From an archaeon (GTDB lineage: Archaea > Asgardarchaeota > Hermodarchaeia > Hermodarchaeales > Hermodarchaeaceae), in the NCBI GenBank assembly GCA_016550415.1, contig JABXGU010000427.1, forward strand, positions 1 to 5,343: a DNA stretch of 5,343 nucleotides, read 5' to 3'. The notes beneath the pieces were generated by a model. The model was not told where the DNA came from. It searched no databases and saw nothing but the letters and a program-made list of their open reading frames with translations. This document shows, in pieces, positions 1-5,343 of this stretch. The stretch's first letter is position 1. Each line of letters starts with the position of its first letter. Position numbers and translations under genes: made by a program.

Positions 1-1155
1 AGGGATCCTAAACGAAGCATGGAATGGGCGGCTGGTGGTGTTGCAGCTGAAAGTTCGATTGGGACTTGGACTGAATTAACGACTGAGAAACCCTATATGA
101 AAAAGCTTGCCGCAACCGTCTTTGAACTCACTGGGAACGTTGCTCGCATCGCCTATCCTATTGAGCTCTTTGAGCCTGGTAACTTGCCTAACATCATGAG
201 TTCTGTAGCTGGGAACGTCTTTGGATTAGGCGATCTGAAGTACCTTCGATTACTCGATATTAAATTTCCGAAAAAAATAGTGAGAAGTTTCCCAGGACCT
301 GCATTTGGTATTCCCGGAATCCGCGCTATCATCAAAGTACCAGAACGGCCTTTAGTTGGAACAATTGTGAAACCTAAACTTGGACTTCGAACCAAAGATC
401 ATGCTGCTGTTGCCTATGAAGCTTGGGCAGGGGGATGTGACATAGTGAAAGATGATGAAAATCTTTCGAGCCAAGCGTTTAATCCTTTTGAAGATCGCGT
501 CATCGCAACACTAGACCAACGCGATCGCGCCGAAGAGGAAACTGGGGAAAAGAAAGTCTACTTAATCAATGTCACCGCAGAAACCCAGGAAATGCTTCGG
601 CGAGCTCAATTTATCGAAGATCATGACGGACGAGTAGCCATGATTGACATTCTCACGTGTGGTTACTCAGCTGTATCAACTCTTCGAGCACAAGGCTTCA
701 ATCTCATCTTGCATGGACATCGAGCAATGCATGCAGCCTTCACAAAGCTTCCTCAACATGGGATTGCCATGCCAGTCATCGTCACTGCCTCGCGGCTACT
801 AGGAATTGACCAATTACATGTAGGAACGGCAGTCGGAAAAATGTCTGAAGATCGAGAGGAAGTTGAAACCAATATTCGCAAATGCAAAGAACCACTTGCA
901 GGGTTGAAACCAACCCTGCCTGTAGCGTCAGGGGGCTTGCACCCACGACATGTCCCAACCCTTATTGACATCTTCGGAACAGACCTGGTTATCCAGGCTG
1001 GTGGAGGTATCCATGGGCACCCCAATGGCACACGAGTTGGTGCAACTGCAATGCGACAAGCCGTGGATGCCACCTTGGCTGGGTATTCTCTTGAAGACTA
1101 TGCCACATCACACCCAGAACTAGCTGAAGCTCTTAAACATTGGTCAACCATATAA
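1..1155 (+). CDS. rbcL: Form III ribulose-1,5-bisphosphate carboxylase/oxygenase large subunit (5' end cut off by window)
   Basis: Carboxylates ribulose-1,5-bisphosphate to two 3-phosphoglycerates in the cytosol. In archaea form III enzymes usually serve the AMP/nucleoside salvage route (AMP phosphorylase, ribose-1,5-bisphosphate isomerase, RuBisCO), though some may fix carbon. The frame is open from base 1; the ATG at 19 is internal, because sequence before it still reads as protein and the family has roughly 25-40 more N-terminal residues. Catalytic residues (spinach numbering) all seem present: E60 (49-51), T65 and W66 (64-69), N123 (214-216), K175 and K177 in VKPKLG (370-378), carbamylated K201 with D203 and E204 in KDDEN (448-459), H294, R295 and H298 in HGHRAMH (718-732), H327 (817-819), loop 6 K334 in VGKM (838-840), S379 in ASGGLH (928-930) and the GGG phosphate loop (1000-1008). 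Intact active-site residues argue against a form IV RuBisCO-like protein. Overall wording resembles methanogen/Archaeoglobus-type form III. The stretch between loop 6 and S379 is short. Partner genes are not visible. Confidence 0.95.
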   Translation, partial: RDPKRSMEWAAGGVAAESSIGTWTELTTEKPYMKKLAATVFELTGNVARIAYPIELFEPGNLPNIMSSVAGNVFGLGDLKYLRLLDIKFPKKIVRSFPGPAFGIPGIRAIIKVPERPLVGTIVKPKLGLRTKDHAAVAYEAWAGGCDIVKDDENLSSQAFNPFEDRVIATLDQRDRAEEETGEKKVYLINVTAETQEMLRRAQFIEDHDGRVAMIDILTCGYSAVSTLRAQGFNLILHGHRAMHAAFTKLPQHGIAMPVIVTASRLLGIDQLHVGTAVGKMSEDREEVETNIRKCKEPLAGLKPTLPVASGGLHPRHVPTLIDIFGTDLVIQAGGGIHGHPNGTRVGATAMRQAVDATLAGYSLEDYATSHPELAEALKHWSTI

Positions 1156-1262: not shown

Positions 1263-2126
1263 TTAACCCATACTAACTAATAATTGAGCAATTATTGCAG
1301 GAACCCATGGGACGACTCCGAATACTACGACGATTAGGCCAGGTATGGGTTTATCTATACGTCGTTGAAAGAGGGCAACCAATACGGCAACTCCAACGAA
1401 AAGCATCAAAGCTGAAGCTAAAGCAATGCCTATACCAAAATACACCAGTGAATGCGCAACAATAGCAGAGTAAGAAACGATGTCACCAACTCCCATGAAT
1501 GTGCCCCCTAGCATGGTTCCTAAGAAATCCATACCATCAACACGCTTTTGCCAATCTGGTTGGACCGCTTGAGCAGTAAATATATCGATGGCTGCCAATG
1601 CTATGAAGAGTACAAACAAGGGAAGGGTAGGAATGGCAACACCCAGAAAAGCACCAATGCTACCACCATACCAGACCACCATTATTTGTTTACCCCACTT
1701 TGGTAACATGTCGAGGATGATGAATAGAATTGCAAACATTGAGAAGTAAATCGAAGCGAATGCTACGATAGAATAAAGGAAAAGGTTTGGAACGCCCTGT
1801 AAAAAGAAGAGCAAAATGATGTGTCCAACTAATAACGTGGCTAAGAATAATAGCGGTGAGAGGAGCACTGAGACAAACAAACGATCCGGATGAACGTTAG
1901 AAAATCGAAAAAACAGATTGAGAATGAATACAATGCCCAGGCCTATGCCTGCGTAAAGTAACACCATGTAGACGTTTAGTGGGAAAGGGTACGCTGTCTC
2001 TAGAGAAATATATGAGAGATCTGTTGTTGTGAGGAGAATATATGCTAAGAGCCCGCCATATAGGATTGCTATAGCAACTTGAGCTGCAATTGTTAGAAAC
2101 CGTCGTTTATCAAAACTCTCACTCAT
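1263..2126 (-). CDS. Presenilin / signal-peptide-peptidase-like GxGD intramembrane aspartyl protease (family A22-like)
   Basis: About 287 residues, almost wholly hydrophobic, with about nine predicted membrane segments (roughly 11-32, 52-74, 84-109, 114-138, 147-164, 166-185, 204-223, 227-253, 261-283, numbered from the ATG). Three hallmarks fall where the family needs them: an Asp in segment 6 (D181 in LAAIDIFTA), GVGD at 212-215 opening segment 7 (MGVGDIVSYSAIVA, very presenilin-like), and P-x-L (PGL, 262-264) at the start of segment 9, where presenilins have PAL. Such enzymes cut transmembrane helices, for example leftover signal peptides. Oddities: Ile replaces the usual Tyr before the segment 6 Asp, and the two catalytic Asp are only 34 residues apart, so the 6-7 loop is very short. 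Type IV prepilin peptidases also use GxGD, but nine segments, no GxGDxK and the PxL motif favour presenilin. A GTG start at 2135 is possible (290 residues), but it lies inside the ribosome binding site of the ATG, so I prefer 2126. It follows the binding-protein gene by 59 bp. Confidence 0.75.
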   Translation of the reverse strand: MSESFDKRRFLTIAAQVAIAILYGGLLAYILLTTTDLSYISLETAYPFPLNVYMVLLYAGIGLGIVFILNLFFRFSNVHPDRLFVSVLLSPLLFLATLLVGHIILLFFLQGVPNLFLYSIVAFASIYFSMFAILFIILDMLPKWGKQIMVVWYGGSIGAFLGVAIPTLPLFVLFIALAAIDIFTAQAVQPDWQKRVDGMDFLGTMLGGTFMGVGDIVSYSAIVAHSLVYFGIGIALASALMLFVGVAVLVALFQRRIDKPIPGLIVVVFGVVPWVPAIIAQLLVSMG

Positions 2127-2131
2127 AATGT

Positions 2132-2137
2132 TCACCT
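2132..2137 (-). promoter_or_regulatory. Shine-Dalgarno site choosing the ATG start of the protease gene
   Basis: The minus strand reads AGGTGA five bases before the ATG at 2126-2124. GGTGA complements the 3' end of archaeal 16S rRNA. The alternative upstream GTG (2135-2133) is embedded in this site, which is the reason for choosing the ATG. Confidence 0.6.
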
Positions 2138-2185: not shown

Positions 2186-4111
2186 TTACTTTCGGATCCG
2201 GAAGAAGTAGACACCAGCAATGATGATGATAACAATCACCACTACGGCAATGCCTACATAGATCAGTGGGTTGAATGGCGGTGGACAGGCTGGTCGCTCT
2301 GGATGAGTGATACCAAAGTGCCAGTCTTCATAGCGGTCTAGGATGATGTATTGTCCAGTGACGCGGGTAACCCACTTGTATGCACCGGTTCCCGTGAAGT
2401 CTAGTGGAGTTTCAGGGCTCCAGGTGAAGTTGCCGGATTCGTATGGTTCCCAGATGTGCTTCGGTAGGATCTGCACACTCGTAGCCTGAGTGAAGGTAAC
2501 GTAGCCAGTGTTGTTGGAATAGATTTCCACTGTGTAGTCGTCTGGCGTATCAATCTTGTAAATGCTTGCAACATTGTCCGCCGTGTATGTACCCCATCGA
2601 TGAATAACATCAAGGCTGTACGCTACGTCTTCAGAGGTGAAGTCTTCACCATCATGCCAGGTGATGTTTTCGTACAGTTCAAATGTGTACTTCAATCCGT
2701 TTTGGATATCACCAGAGGCCGTGGTTTCTTCAATAGTCCAATTATAGGCTAGGTTTGGTGCAGCTGCGGATTCCTCATCTAGAGGATCAACACGCCATAG
2801 GGTATCATAGATGAGACCCATGATGGTTTGTGTGTATCCTGATGAGCTGAGGATGGTATTTGTGAAGTCCATTCCTTCTGAGAGCACGGTGATGTATTCA
2901 GTTGGGTAACAACCGTAGGGACCACCTGCTGCTTCCTTCAGACGGATTTGTTGTAGAGTGTATGGGTTACCATTCATTCGGTTAATACCGAATTGGTTGA
3001 CATATCCTTCCCAAATATCAGTCCGGTAAGCGTGGGTGTATTCGTCGTTGTAGCAGACAATCATGGGCATTTCTTCCATGAGAATCGCACAACAATTCCA
3101 CGCCCAGTTCCGCGCTTCCAGCCGAGTTGGCGCATTCATGAATTGAGTGCAGTTGTAGTCATATTGTGTGTTGTTGTATCGGTAGAAGAAGGAGTTGTCG
3201 CCACCTTCAGTGTGGAAGAAGTCGTACAGGAGGGTTGGGTCACCTGGTGGGTTGATGTTCCAGCTGAAACAGCCTAGGCTGTAATCACCTGAACCGAGAC
3301 CAGCAATTAATGCGTTGAAGTCTACTTCAACAACTTCACCTTGTAGACCACATTTCTCCATGCCAGCAACTTCTGCTAGACAAGCTTGGATAGCTGGGTC
3401 ATAACCAGCTGAGGCCCACAGCTCAATCTTCAAACCATCGGGAGCAGCAACGTCACCACGCTTGTCAATTCCAACATCCCAAGCGTCATTGTCGTTTGCA
3501 TCATAGTATCGGTAACCTGGGTGTGGTGAGTCAGGGGTGTCGATGATGTTCCATGCATCAAGGGTTGCGTTTGCACTGGCAATGTCCTCTGCATAGAAGT
3601 GTTCTGTCATCTCCTCTTCATAAGTCCAATACGAGAAGGGCAGAGGAATGGGGTTGTCCATTACTTGGGCAAAACCACCTCGTGCATTTGTGACTACGAC
3701 GGATTTGTCGAGTGCATACGATAACGCGACACGATACCCGGTAATGTTAGTTGGGAATCGAGCGCAGTTCATGGTTAGTTGCCGGTAAATAGTACCTGCA
3801 ACAGAAGAGACTGTGATGGCTGGATTGGATTCCAGTTCAGCCACAGATTGGTGTGGGATTCGCTCGTCATAAGAGTACACTGAACCTGATTGAAGAGCAA
3901 GCAGTGCTGCTGCAATATCCTCTGATGGATAGACGATGAAAGTTAATCGATCAACGTAGCCACCGTGAGGATCGTATCCGCTCGGATATGTCCAGTCAGC
4001 ACGAACAGACGCTTGTTGGGGAGAAATGTACGCAAGAGAGAGGAAGAGACCCACTAGTGCGATAGCTGTCACTAAAGAGATTTTCTTTAATTTTGTCAAT
4101 TCGGAATTCAT
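2186..4111 (-). CDS. ABC transporter substrate-binding protein, family 5 (peptide/oligopeptide type), circularly permuted and membrane-anchored
   Basis: A 641-residue extracellular binding protein that should deliver peptides or a similar solute to a Dpp/Opp-type importer. Residues 7-28 form a signal peptide (KLKK then a hydrophobic run), with likely cleavage near A38; there is no lipobox Cys. Residues about 51-392 match the normally C-terminal part of SBP_bac_5 proteins (VDRLTFIVYP, ALQSGSVY, RVALSYALDK, LKIELWAS, GDPTLLYDFF). Residues 393-405 are a linker. Residues about 406-600 match the normally N-terminal part (ITVLSEG, GLIYDTLWRVDP, LKYTFELYENITWHDGEDFT, TPDDYTVEIY, ILPKHIWE, TGTGAYKW, IILDRYEDW). 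Thus the two parts are in reversed order. A Pro-rich spacer (604-613) and one membrane helix (616-636) ending FRIRK anchor it. There are eight N-x-S/T sequons, ten Cys in the outer part and an EF-hand-like Asp/Asn loop (204-212). GGAAGGA abuts the ATG with no spacing, an odd ribosome site. It lies downstream of the permease and has its own TATA box. Family assignment is sure; substrate is not. Confidence 0.93.
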   Translation of the reverse strand: MNSELTKLKKISLVTAIALVGLFLSLAYISPQQASVRADWTYPSGYDPHGGYVDRLTFIVYPSEDIAAALLALQSGSVYSYDERIPHQSVAELESNPAITVSSVAGTIYRQLTMNCARFPTNITGYRVALSYALDKSVVVTNARGGFAQVMDNPIPLPFSYWTYEEEMTEHFYAEDIASANATLDAWNIIDTPDSPHPGYRYYDANDNDAWDVGIDKRGDVAAPDGLKIELWASAGYDPAIQACLAEVAGMEKCGLQGEVVEVDFNALIAGLGSGDYSLGCFSWNINPPGDPTLLYDFFHTEGGDNSFFYRYNNTQYDYNCTQFMNAPTRLEARNWAWNCCAILMEEMPMIVCYNDEYTHAYRTDIWEGYVNQFGINRMNGNPYTLQQIRLKEAAGGPYGCYPTEYITVLSEGMDFTNTILSSSGYTQTIMGLIYDTLWRVDPLDEESAAAPNLAYNWTIEETTASGDIQNGLKYTFELYENITWHDGEDFTSEDVAYSLDVIHRWGTYTADNVASIYKIDTPDDYTVEIYSNNTGYVTFTQATSVQILPKHIWEPYESGNFTWSPETPLDFTGTGAYKWVTRVTGQYIILDRYEDWHFGITHPERPACPPPFNPLIYVGIAVVVIVIIIIAGVYFFRIRK

Positions 4112-4293: not shown

Positions 4294-4590
4294 CTATTTT
4301 GTGTTGTATTCCTTTTCTTTCTCAGCTTCATCAAGATCTTCGCTAAGAGGGGGCGGGATGGGACGTTGTCGTTGTAAGGATCTTGTACTTAGTTCAAGGG
4401 ATATTATCATGACCAAAAGAATGCCAAGTGATAGGAGTCCAGCAAGAACAACCATGCCTCCGAAAAGCCCAATAATAGCATTTGTTGTCCAAAATCCAAA
4501 CATAATGATGCTGCCAGTAATAATCAAGACAATTGGAATAAGAATTGTCCAACGTCGGTAAACAACTTTCACTTCACGTTTTTTTGTCAT
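4294..4590 (-). CDS. Small two-helix membrane protein of unknown function
   Basis: A 98-residue protein that I do not recognise. A basic N-terminus (MTKKREVKVVYRR) is followed by two hydrophobic segments (about 15-36 and 38-64). The tail (about 66-98) is charged, with a basic start, a PIPPP stretch and an acidic/lysine-rich end (SEDLDEAEKEKEY). By the positive-inside rule both ends should be cytoplasmic. It follows the 139-residue membrane gene by 46 bp and precedes the promoter region of the binding-protein gene, so it probably belongs to the permease transcript. The codons are natural and the frame ends in TAG. An overlapping plus-strand reading frame has no protein-like features. An accessory part of the transporter is possible, but only from position. 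Confidence 0.7.
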   Translation of the reverse strand: MTKKREVKVVYRRWTILIPIVLIITGSIIMFGFWTTNAIIGLFGGMVVLAGLLSLGILLVMIISLELSTRSLQRQRPIPPPLSEDLDEAEKEKEYNTK

Positions 4591-4636: not shown

Positions 4637-5056
4637 TTAGATTAAATCCTTGGTTTTGGGTTCTATTATAAATTCATTGAAAAGTAAGCCAGCAACTGTT
4701 CCGAGAGTGAATACCAGAACAAGAGGGAAAAATAATGGAACGGTCAAAGCGAATTGGGAGATTATGAAGAAGGTGGTATCTTGGATAATTATGCCTAAGA
4801 AAACAGGGGCTGAGCGTGCTATTGCGAACGTGAAAATTGAAATTATCATTGTGGCGACCATTGCAAGTACGGCATCTTTGAATTCAATACACATTATGCC
4901 TAAGAAGAAAGCAGGGATGAATAGGAGAAAGATTGCTAGCTGAGTAACTATTGGGAAGATATTCGTGTAGGTCAAATGAAGAATCGATGTGGTGATTATG
5001 GTTGCACCAATTATCCCATACACTGTAAAGGCTAAGCGTATTCGAGTATATGACAC
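4637..5056 (-). CDS. Four-helix (approximately) integral membrane protein of unknown function
   Basis: A 139-residue, very hydrophobic protein that I do not recognise. Likely membrane segments are about 8-28, 34-56, 62-80 and 97-126 (the last may be two). A short basic N-terminus (TRIR) and a charged C-terminus (IEPKTKD) flank the helices. It lacks the EAA-loop motif of ABC permeases and is far too short to be the DppC partner. The start is a GTG at 5056-5054, supported by an AGGAGAAGGA site just upstream. It begins 32 bp after the permease stop and is followed after 46 bp by another small membrane gene, so the three are probably co-transcribed. Composition looks more AT-rich than the binding-protein gene. 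Confidence 0.7.
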   Translation of the reverse strand: MSYTRIRLAFTVYGIIGATIITTSILHLTYTNIFPIVTQLAIFLLFIPAFFLGIMCIEFKDAVLAMVATMIISIFTFAIARSAPVFLGIIIQDTTFFIISQFALTVPLFFPLVLVFTLGTVAGLLFNEFIIEPKTKDLI

Positions 5057-5088: not shown

Positions 5089-5343
5089 TTATCCATATTT
5101 GATTCGTGGATCAAGAACTCCATAGAGAACATCGGCGATTATATTTGCAATAATTACTGTCGCGGCAATCATAAAGAAGATGCCTTGGGCTGTTGGCCAA
5201 TCATTGGCGGTCAATGCTCCGTAGAGTAGTCTTCCCATCCCGAGCCATATGAATACCGTTTCGGTGAGAATCGCACCGCTTATGATGAAAGCAAAGTTGA
5301 TGGCTATCAATGAGATTAACGGGAGAAATGCATTTCGTACCCC
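5089..5343 (-). CDS. dppB: ABC transporter permease, DppB/OppB type (C-terminal part; 5' end outside window)
   Basis: The last 84 residues of an inner-membrane permease of the peptide/nickel importer family, which forms the channel together with a DppC-type partner. The frame is open to the window edge, so the TTG at 5310 is not the true start. Recognisable family wording: RNAFLPLISL after the (missing) EAA loop, a helix with FIISGAILTETVF, WLGMGRLLYGAL, NDWPTAQGIFF, a last helix VIIANIIADVLYG, and the typical DppB ending LDPRIKYG. The usual FSWPG is FIWLG here. The EAA coupling loop would lie outside the window. DppC and the DppD/DppF ATPases are not seen. Two unknown membrane genes follow directly, then the binding-protein gene. 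Confidence 0.9.
   Translation of the reverse strand, partial: GVRNAFLPLISLIAINFAFIISGAILTETVFIWLGMGRLLYGALTANDWPTAQGIFFMIAATVIIANIIADVLYGVLDPRIKYG

Follow-up and report, generated by a model that had tools for sequence, protein, structure and literature searches.

Does a gene of an Asgard archaeon encode a solute-binding protein whose parts have been circularly permuted and, if so, what would such a protein do and how did the new order arise? The question is raised by a 5,343-nucleotide stretch of contig JABXGU010000427.1 (assembly GCA_016550415.1, Hermodarchaeaceae), which was analysed whole and is called the window here. The original prediction, made from the letters of the DNA and a list of its open reading frames (ORFs), saw in it a family 5 solute-binding protein with its motifs in rotated order. 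DppA/OppA/NikA-type family 5 proteins (PF00496) form 'cluster C' of the binding proteins. Judged by its sequence, the window protein is a circular permutant of this family, with a cyclic change only, a short linker between the old ends, and new ends in a loop. We put at roughly 0.87 the probability that it is a working, membrane-tethered receptor of a Dpp/Opp-type importer, circularly permuted, probably by duplication.

Order of the parts in the window protein

The gene occupies positions 2186-4111 of the reverse strand and its product has 641 amino acids (aa). The span first proposed for it, 2312-3961, lies in the right gene and omits the signal peptide and the membrane anchor. We call the canonical first part (about 40%) A and the canonical last 60% or so B, which consists of b and c; Abc is then the canonical order, bcA the rotation of the window protein and cAb a second rotation. 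The chain runs from a signal peptide through B and A to a C-terminal membrane anchor:

2186..4111, reverse strand: circularly permuted family 5 solute-binding protein, 641 aa (profile, PDB-sequence and BLASTP matches, AlphaFold2 model)
4028..4102, reverse strand: N-terminal signal helix, residues 4-28 (AlphaFold2 helix)
3536..3964, reverse strand: segment b, residues 50-192, VDRLTF...RVALSYALDK, canonical middle part, N-terminal here (match to DppA, 1dpe)
2936..3436, reverse strand: segment c, residues 226-392, ...GDPTLLYDFF...YTLQQIRLK, canonical last part (PDB-sequence match and segment assignment)
2906..2935, reverse strand: junction of old C-terminus and old N-terminus, residues 393-402, EAAGGPYGCY (75-row alignment)
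2303..2905, reverse strand: segment A, residues 403-603, ITVLSEG...WHDG...GTGAYKW...LDRYEDW, canonical first part, C-terminal here (NCBIfam and PDB-sequence match)
2192..2269, reverse strand: C-terminal transmembrane anchor at the new cut, residues 615-640 (AlphaFold2 model)

Both halves of the protein match family 5, PF00496 significantly and NCBIfam and PDB sequences for each half. PF00496 matches in two stretches (145.4 bits against the Pfam cut-off of 32.4), of which the better, residues 47-304, aligns to profile positions 142-366 of 368. Residues 458-600 match NCBIfam Opp4A at its positions 77-235 of 556, and residues 45-178 match NCBIfam DppA at positions 231-359 of 535, so the two halves are non-collinear. 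Our search of PDB sequences revealed that residues 44-179 match chain positions 202-332 of DppA (1dpe), and that residues 468-600 match positions 67-202 of a Listeria protein (5isu, 41.9 bits), whose positions 206-327 match residues 53-180 at 6.7 bits, weak by itself. Further, 3m8u matches residues 45-178 with positions 209-333 (30.0 bits), residues 243-351 with positions 367-474 (14.9 bits) and residues 452-496 with positions 50-86 (5.1 bits, non-significant by itself). Taken together, the PF00496, Opp4A, 1dpe and 5isu matches give the order b-c-A; since this is not the canonical A-b-c order, we class the protein as a permuted variant and not as an ordinary member of family 5. The reversal of motif order relative to DppA/OppA that had been read from the sequence is thus borne out by Pfam, NCBIfam, PDB-sequence and BLASTP matches, and the proposed PF00496 alignment returned two stretches, the non-collinearity being shown through the NCBIfam and PDB-sequence matches.

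The old termini are joined by about 10-13 residues. Positions 2897-2935, where the original prediction had placed a joint of about 13 residues, correspond to residues 393-405 (EAAGGPYGCYPTE), and in the 75-row alignment G396, G397, P398 and G400 of this motif are almost invariant. The GG(T) start of canonical archaeal mature proteins is retained at the junction of relatives, as in 'GELGGTLRYACSDNLNTLN' of the permuted protein P0100; the canonical proteins L027 and L079 have 'PGGVVKV' and 'PGGTLRV' close to their start. The linker between the old ends has a median of 15 residues in bcA proteins (209 proteins) and 7 in cAb proteins (26). The cut had been placed in the loop that leads from the strand after GTGPY to the IDxLxF strand, and this location holds as well: in the 176 canonical proteins, A and b are separated by a median of 1 residue at the point where bcA is opened.

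AlphaFold2 gave one confident fold for the window protein (predicted local distance difference test score, pLDDT, 92; predicted template modelling score, pTM, 0.83), with a signal helix and, at the permuted C-terminal end where a membrane anchor had been expected, a transmembrane helix. The protein has in common with DppA/OppA/NikA-type proteins the sequence family, the predicted fold of the comparable half and an adjacent DppB-type permease, but its order is B-A instead of A-B and its tether sits at another point of the fold.

Cyclic orders and the spread of two rotations

Relatives of the window protein show the same order. The nearest named ones come from Hermodarchaeota (Asgard) metagenome-assembled genomes (MAGs) at 80-82% identity, and identity in the 75-row alignment runs from 93% down to 28%. 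The search for same-order homologues that had been suggested yielded bcA in 100 of 102 distinct close homologues, the other two being a 391-aa fragment of cA type and a 429-aa fragment of bc type; the 102 are the first 103 without P0006, which was dropped because it ends in the same 250 residues as P0004. By BLASTP the window protein matched 207 of 209 bcA proteins, with 202 of these alignments unbroken across the junction and 5 covering the A half only. Against 176 canonical-order proteins there were 168 matches, and wherever both halves were matched (66/168) the order was swapped, the second half of the query coming first (66/66); the remaining matches involved the second half only (96), the first half only (5) or another arrangement (1).

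These comparisons bear on the objection that the gene is an assembly artefact in which two adjacent copies were mis-joined. Asgard genomes do contain tandem copies of the kind needed (seven in L121, five in L120), but the same order recurs in about 100 proteins from several databases at 28-93% identity, among Bacillota and in L010, a chromosome record of 4.9 Mb, and the junction motif is conserved across relatives. We regard a mis-join as wholly improbable and, with 100 of 102 distinct close homologues in bcA order and the other two fragments, reject misassembly for the family. That the order might be a private oddity of one gene is rejected as well, bcA being found in other archaea and in Bacillota.

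We divided the canonical chain into five segments (1-2 = A, 3 = b, 4-5 = c) and scored their order in 424 sequences. The order 34512 was found in 203, 12345 in 170, 45123 in 25 and 1234512345 in 3, these three entries being two distinct proteins as L026 and L089 are the same locus. The 23 incomplete orders each fit a rotation, and not one of the 424 sequences had a non-cyclic order. As the collection was built by similarity to permuted queries, these counts are not frequencies. Circular permutation, the central claim of the original prediction, finds support in the sequence, in about 100 homologues, in a confident model of the whole chain and in strictly cyclic orders.

Two points go beyond that prediction: the bcA form is widespread, and a second cut site exists. 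The named loci with bcA belong to Hermod-, Hod- and Heimdallarchaeota, Bathyarchaeota, Culexarchaeota and Thermoproteota, with one further Nitrososphaerota record; in the same set, all 41 classified bacterial ORFs and 7 of 12 Thermoproteota ORFs were canonical. With orders mixed, matching genomes numbered 60/119 in a phylum-level sample around an Asgard genome (E 1e-10 or better), 123/300 around a Thermoproteota genome (1e-12) and 34/194 around a Thermoplasmata genome (1e-12). The classified loci on the Thermoplasmata side (L177-L205) were canonical except L204, which is cAb-like but runs off its contig after b and might continue. Bacteria also have the bcA form: P0180, named Limnochordia bacterium, was matched in 26 of 299 genomes around a Clostridia MAG at 1e-35, 21 of them at 50% identity or more.

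The cAb family has its cut within B, where the DGDGxRE loop links segments b and c. Its members are named Thermoprotei, Thermoproteota and Baldrarchaeia, two loci come from a Geothermarchaeota and a Nitrososphaeria MAG (L040, L041), and the form was found once in Hermodarchaeum (L004). The predicted structure of the cAb protein P0135 had a pLDDT of 88.7 and a pTM of 0.83. The cAb proteins (L040, P0121-P0132, P0135 and others) share with the window protein membership of family 5, fused old termini and, mostly, a C-terminal hydrophobic stretch; they differ from it in their cut site between b and c.

Membrane tether, transporter genes and likely function

By a simple hydropathy rule, a hydrophobic stretch follows the domain at the C-terminus in 167 of 208 bcA proteins, 23 of 25 cAb proteins and 48 of 165 canonical proteins, the canonical set mixing bacteria and archaea. 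As the stretch is common in permutants, rotation places the tether at another point of the fold. Could the permutation then be adaptive, the tether having been shifted so that the receptor docks or closes better? Most permutants have the new stretch, bcA, cAb and anchored canonical proteins between them offer three tether points, and Brautigam et al. suggested a similar idea for TpMglB-2 (excerpts of PMC4990184). Yet the rotation persists unanchored in the Bacillota-named bcA proteins P0170, P0180, P0182 and P0190 (566-578 aa), which lack the stretch and so are evidence against tethering as the sole cause, and canonical proteins with a C-terminal stretch exist. We consider an adaptive shift conceivable but improbable.

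TpMglB-2 (Tp0684) of Treponema pallidum is a solved permuted sugar receptor of type I, for which its authors propose a subclass 'type Ic / cluster Bc', and whose permuted part, they consider, may have come from another gene, as far as the excerpts of PMC4990184 go. By the same excerpts it shares with the window protein a natural permutation and a tether, with tethering as a possible reason, the ligand binding that was kept being that of TpMglB-2; it differs in belonging to the sugar-binding type I family and in its cut site. A check of the molecule names given for the 51 PDB sequences that matched the window protein showed no MglB. Our searches of an open-access PMC library, which holds neither subscription papers nor preprints, found no description of a permuted family 5 protein, and the portions of PMC2588589 and PMC2912341 consulted do not discuss one. 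Within that literature, the original statement that the family had no described example holds, the permuted TpMglB-2 belonging to another family.

Upstream of the binding-protein gene, the window holds the end of a permease gene and two small ORFs:

5089..5343, reverse strand: C-terminal end of a DppB/OppB-type permease (PF00528, 4.1e-14; NCBIfam DppB, 1.7e-21)
4637..5056, reverse strand: small membrane protein of 139 aa, encoded between the permease and binding-protein genes (no Pfam match)
4294..4590, reverse strand: small membrane protein of 98 aa, likewise encoded between these two genes (no Pfam match reaching its cut-off)

The Hermodarchaeota locus L002 shares with the window a permease in the same position, a 139-aa ORF at the corresponding place (by position and length, unaligned), the bcA gene, a polytopic membrane protein and an opposite-strand RuBisCO. 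Divergently upstream, L002 also has a second permease and two ATPases with an oligopeptide-transporter C-terminal domain. A single row in L018 comprises two ATPases of this type, bcA and a pair of permeases, of which the second has an OppC N-terminal domain, and a permease and ATPases lay nearby in 4 of 4 Bacillota-side loci inspected.

From the order, family, predicted fold, predicted anchor and adjacent permease we infer that the protein binds a solute, closes around it and delivers it, and also what kind of solute this may be: most likely it would receive a small solute, possibly a peptide, for an ATP-binding cassette importer. It would be exported by its signal peptide and tethered outside the membrane through the predicted C-terminal helix at the new cut, it would fold as the usual two-lobed clam shell, and its cleft would trap a solute that would then be handed to the DppB-type permease encoded alongside. 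Alternatively, the fold may have been reused in a surface protein for adhesion or sensing. No transporter was found near several Asgard copies in the neighbour count for L001-L080, and bcA modules open some proteins of 1,000-2,600 aa with Ig/PKD-like domains, one with a subtilase (L113, L117); but the window copy has a DppB-type permease directly upstream and its relative L002 carries more transporter genes at the corresponding place, and we hold a surface role of this kind to be quite unlikely.

Among the long proteins, the 2,587-aa product of L113:798-8558 (-) starts with a bcA module and has a subtilase plus Ig/PKD-like domains, the binding module being fused to an extracellular protease. 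L112, L114 and L115 have bcA-type modules in proteins of 2,310-2,520 aa.

Two further neighbours lie in the window. YD, GxGD and PAL are the motifs of presenilin-type intramembrane proteases, and the 290-aa polytopic membrane protein at 1263-2135 (-) resembles them with 'AAIDIF', 'GTFMGVGD' and 'PIPGL'; Pfam listed no match for it even at E 10, and its copy beside the permuted gene in L002 is 82% identical. A Form III RuBisCO large subunit lies at 1-1155 (+), its start beyond the window edge (TIGR03326, 509 bits, cut-off 497); that of L002 has 426 aa and lies on the strand opposite the binding-protein gene.

Origin of the rotations

A tandem duplication followed by loss of the outer halves had been proposed as the origin, with two-copy binding proteins in relatives as a check. 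Two such fused tandems were found: P0145 (1,019 aa, two Pfam stretches, 607.8 bits) and L026:121-7224 (+) from a Thermoplasmata MAG (2,368 aa, a long N-terminal part followed by two complete family 5 domains). Both share with the window protein a B-A junction, here mid-chain in A-B-A-B, but retain both outer parts, and they may not be close kin of the window family. The bcA genes also form arrays on one strand in Asgard loci (seven in L121, five in L120), which provide raw material for fusion. Most likely, the permutation would have arisen by in-frame fusion of two tandem copies and the later gain of new start and stop sites, and the bcA rotation perhaps arose once, long ago. A single event for both rotations is rejected, since two cut sites require at least two events; two rotations are shown, and the data suggest more.

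The excerpts of PMC3320104 set out duplication and, as the second main model, fission and fusion, and predict that duplicated intermediates exist. In the second model a canonical gene was split into A and B genes that later rejoined as B-A, which yields an identical product. A few part-length proteins were found (cA 5, bc 4, A 1), but those inspected (P0048, P0089, L015) are short or run off contigs, whereas the duplication route has its intermediate in fused tandem copies, which were seen. We consider fission and fusion unlikely, and favour duplication.

Several results pull against the reading given at the outset. Sequential structure aligners align one half of the model only, so that its comparison with solved structures covers the half other than A. 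A same-strand permease lay within 9 kb of 13/32 bcA and 0/3 cAb genes versus 45/51 canonical genes (L001-L080, many of which end early, limiting these counts); several Asgard copies are orphan or in tandem arrays, those of L121 and L120 with no same-strand permease in the fetched stretch. Our trees took the first 36 of 73 canonical representatives. The 88-row tree needs 4 label changes for bcA and 7 for cAb, of which starred branches force at least 2 and at least 4. In a second tree with 13 rows fewer, bcA forms one side of a branch with support 80 (unstarred) and cAb needs 5 changes; a single bcA origin therefore rests on omitting these rows, four of which are bcA (L021, L160, L090, L025). 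Nine of the 13 had end branches over 1.5; the others were L204 (open end) and P0212, L069 and P0119 (1.26-1.45, under the program's long-branch mark). An approximately unbiased test did not reject a single cAb clade (p 0.075), so we do not claim separate cAb origins despite the changes forced by starred branches. In the 88-row tree the P0145 copies pair together, away from the window family, and L026 copy 1 falls with canonical Thermoplasmata proteins, copy 2 being unplaced. The tandems thus demonstrate that the intermediate state exists and do not imply an ancestor of the family; the duplication proposal gains from their existence and from the gene arrays, but not from their position.

A wider reading, which we advance tentatively, is that the Dpp/Opp receptor fold may have been permuted repeatedly, at two cut sites and perhaps at least five times, through fused tandems of a kind that still exists, each rotation shifting the membrane tether and so changing how the receptor meets its transporter. 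One large receptor family holds two rotations, each a family of its own, together with the fused tandems that theory predicts, across two domains of life. Comparing these natural proteins can test how the permutation came about, how it affects lobe closure and what the tether does. Pfam and source names label the permuted proteins as ordinary family 5, and DppA/OppA templates would therefore give them wrong domain boundaries, ligand predictions and anchor sites.

Directly downstream of an intact bcA gene, L006:1981-2764 (+) holds a second bcA gene in pieces, in more than one frame and with stops, probably the remains of a tandem duplicate. The genome of L026 encodes further long canonical family 5 proteins (L122, 1,825 aa; L123, 1,691 aa; L124, 1,266 aa, cut).
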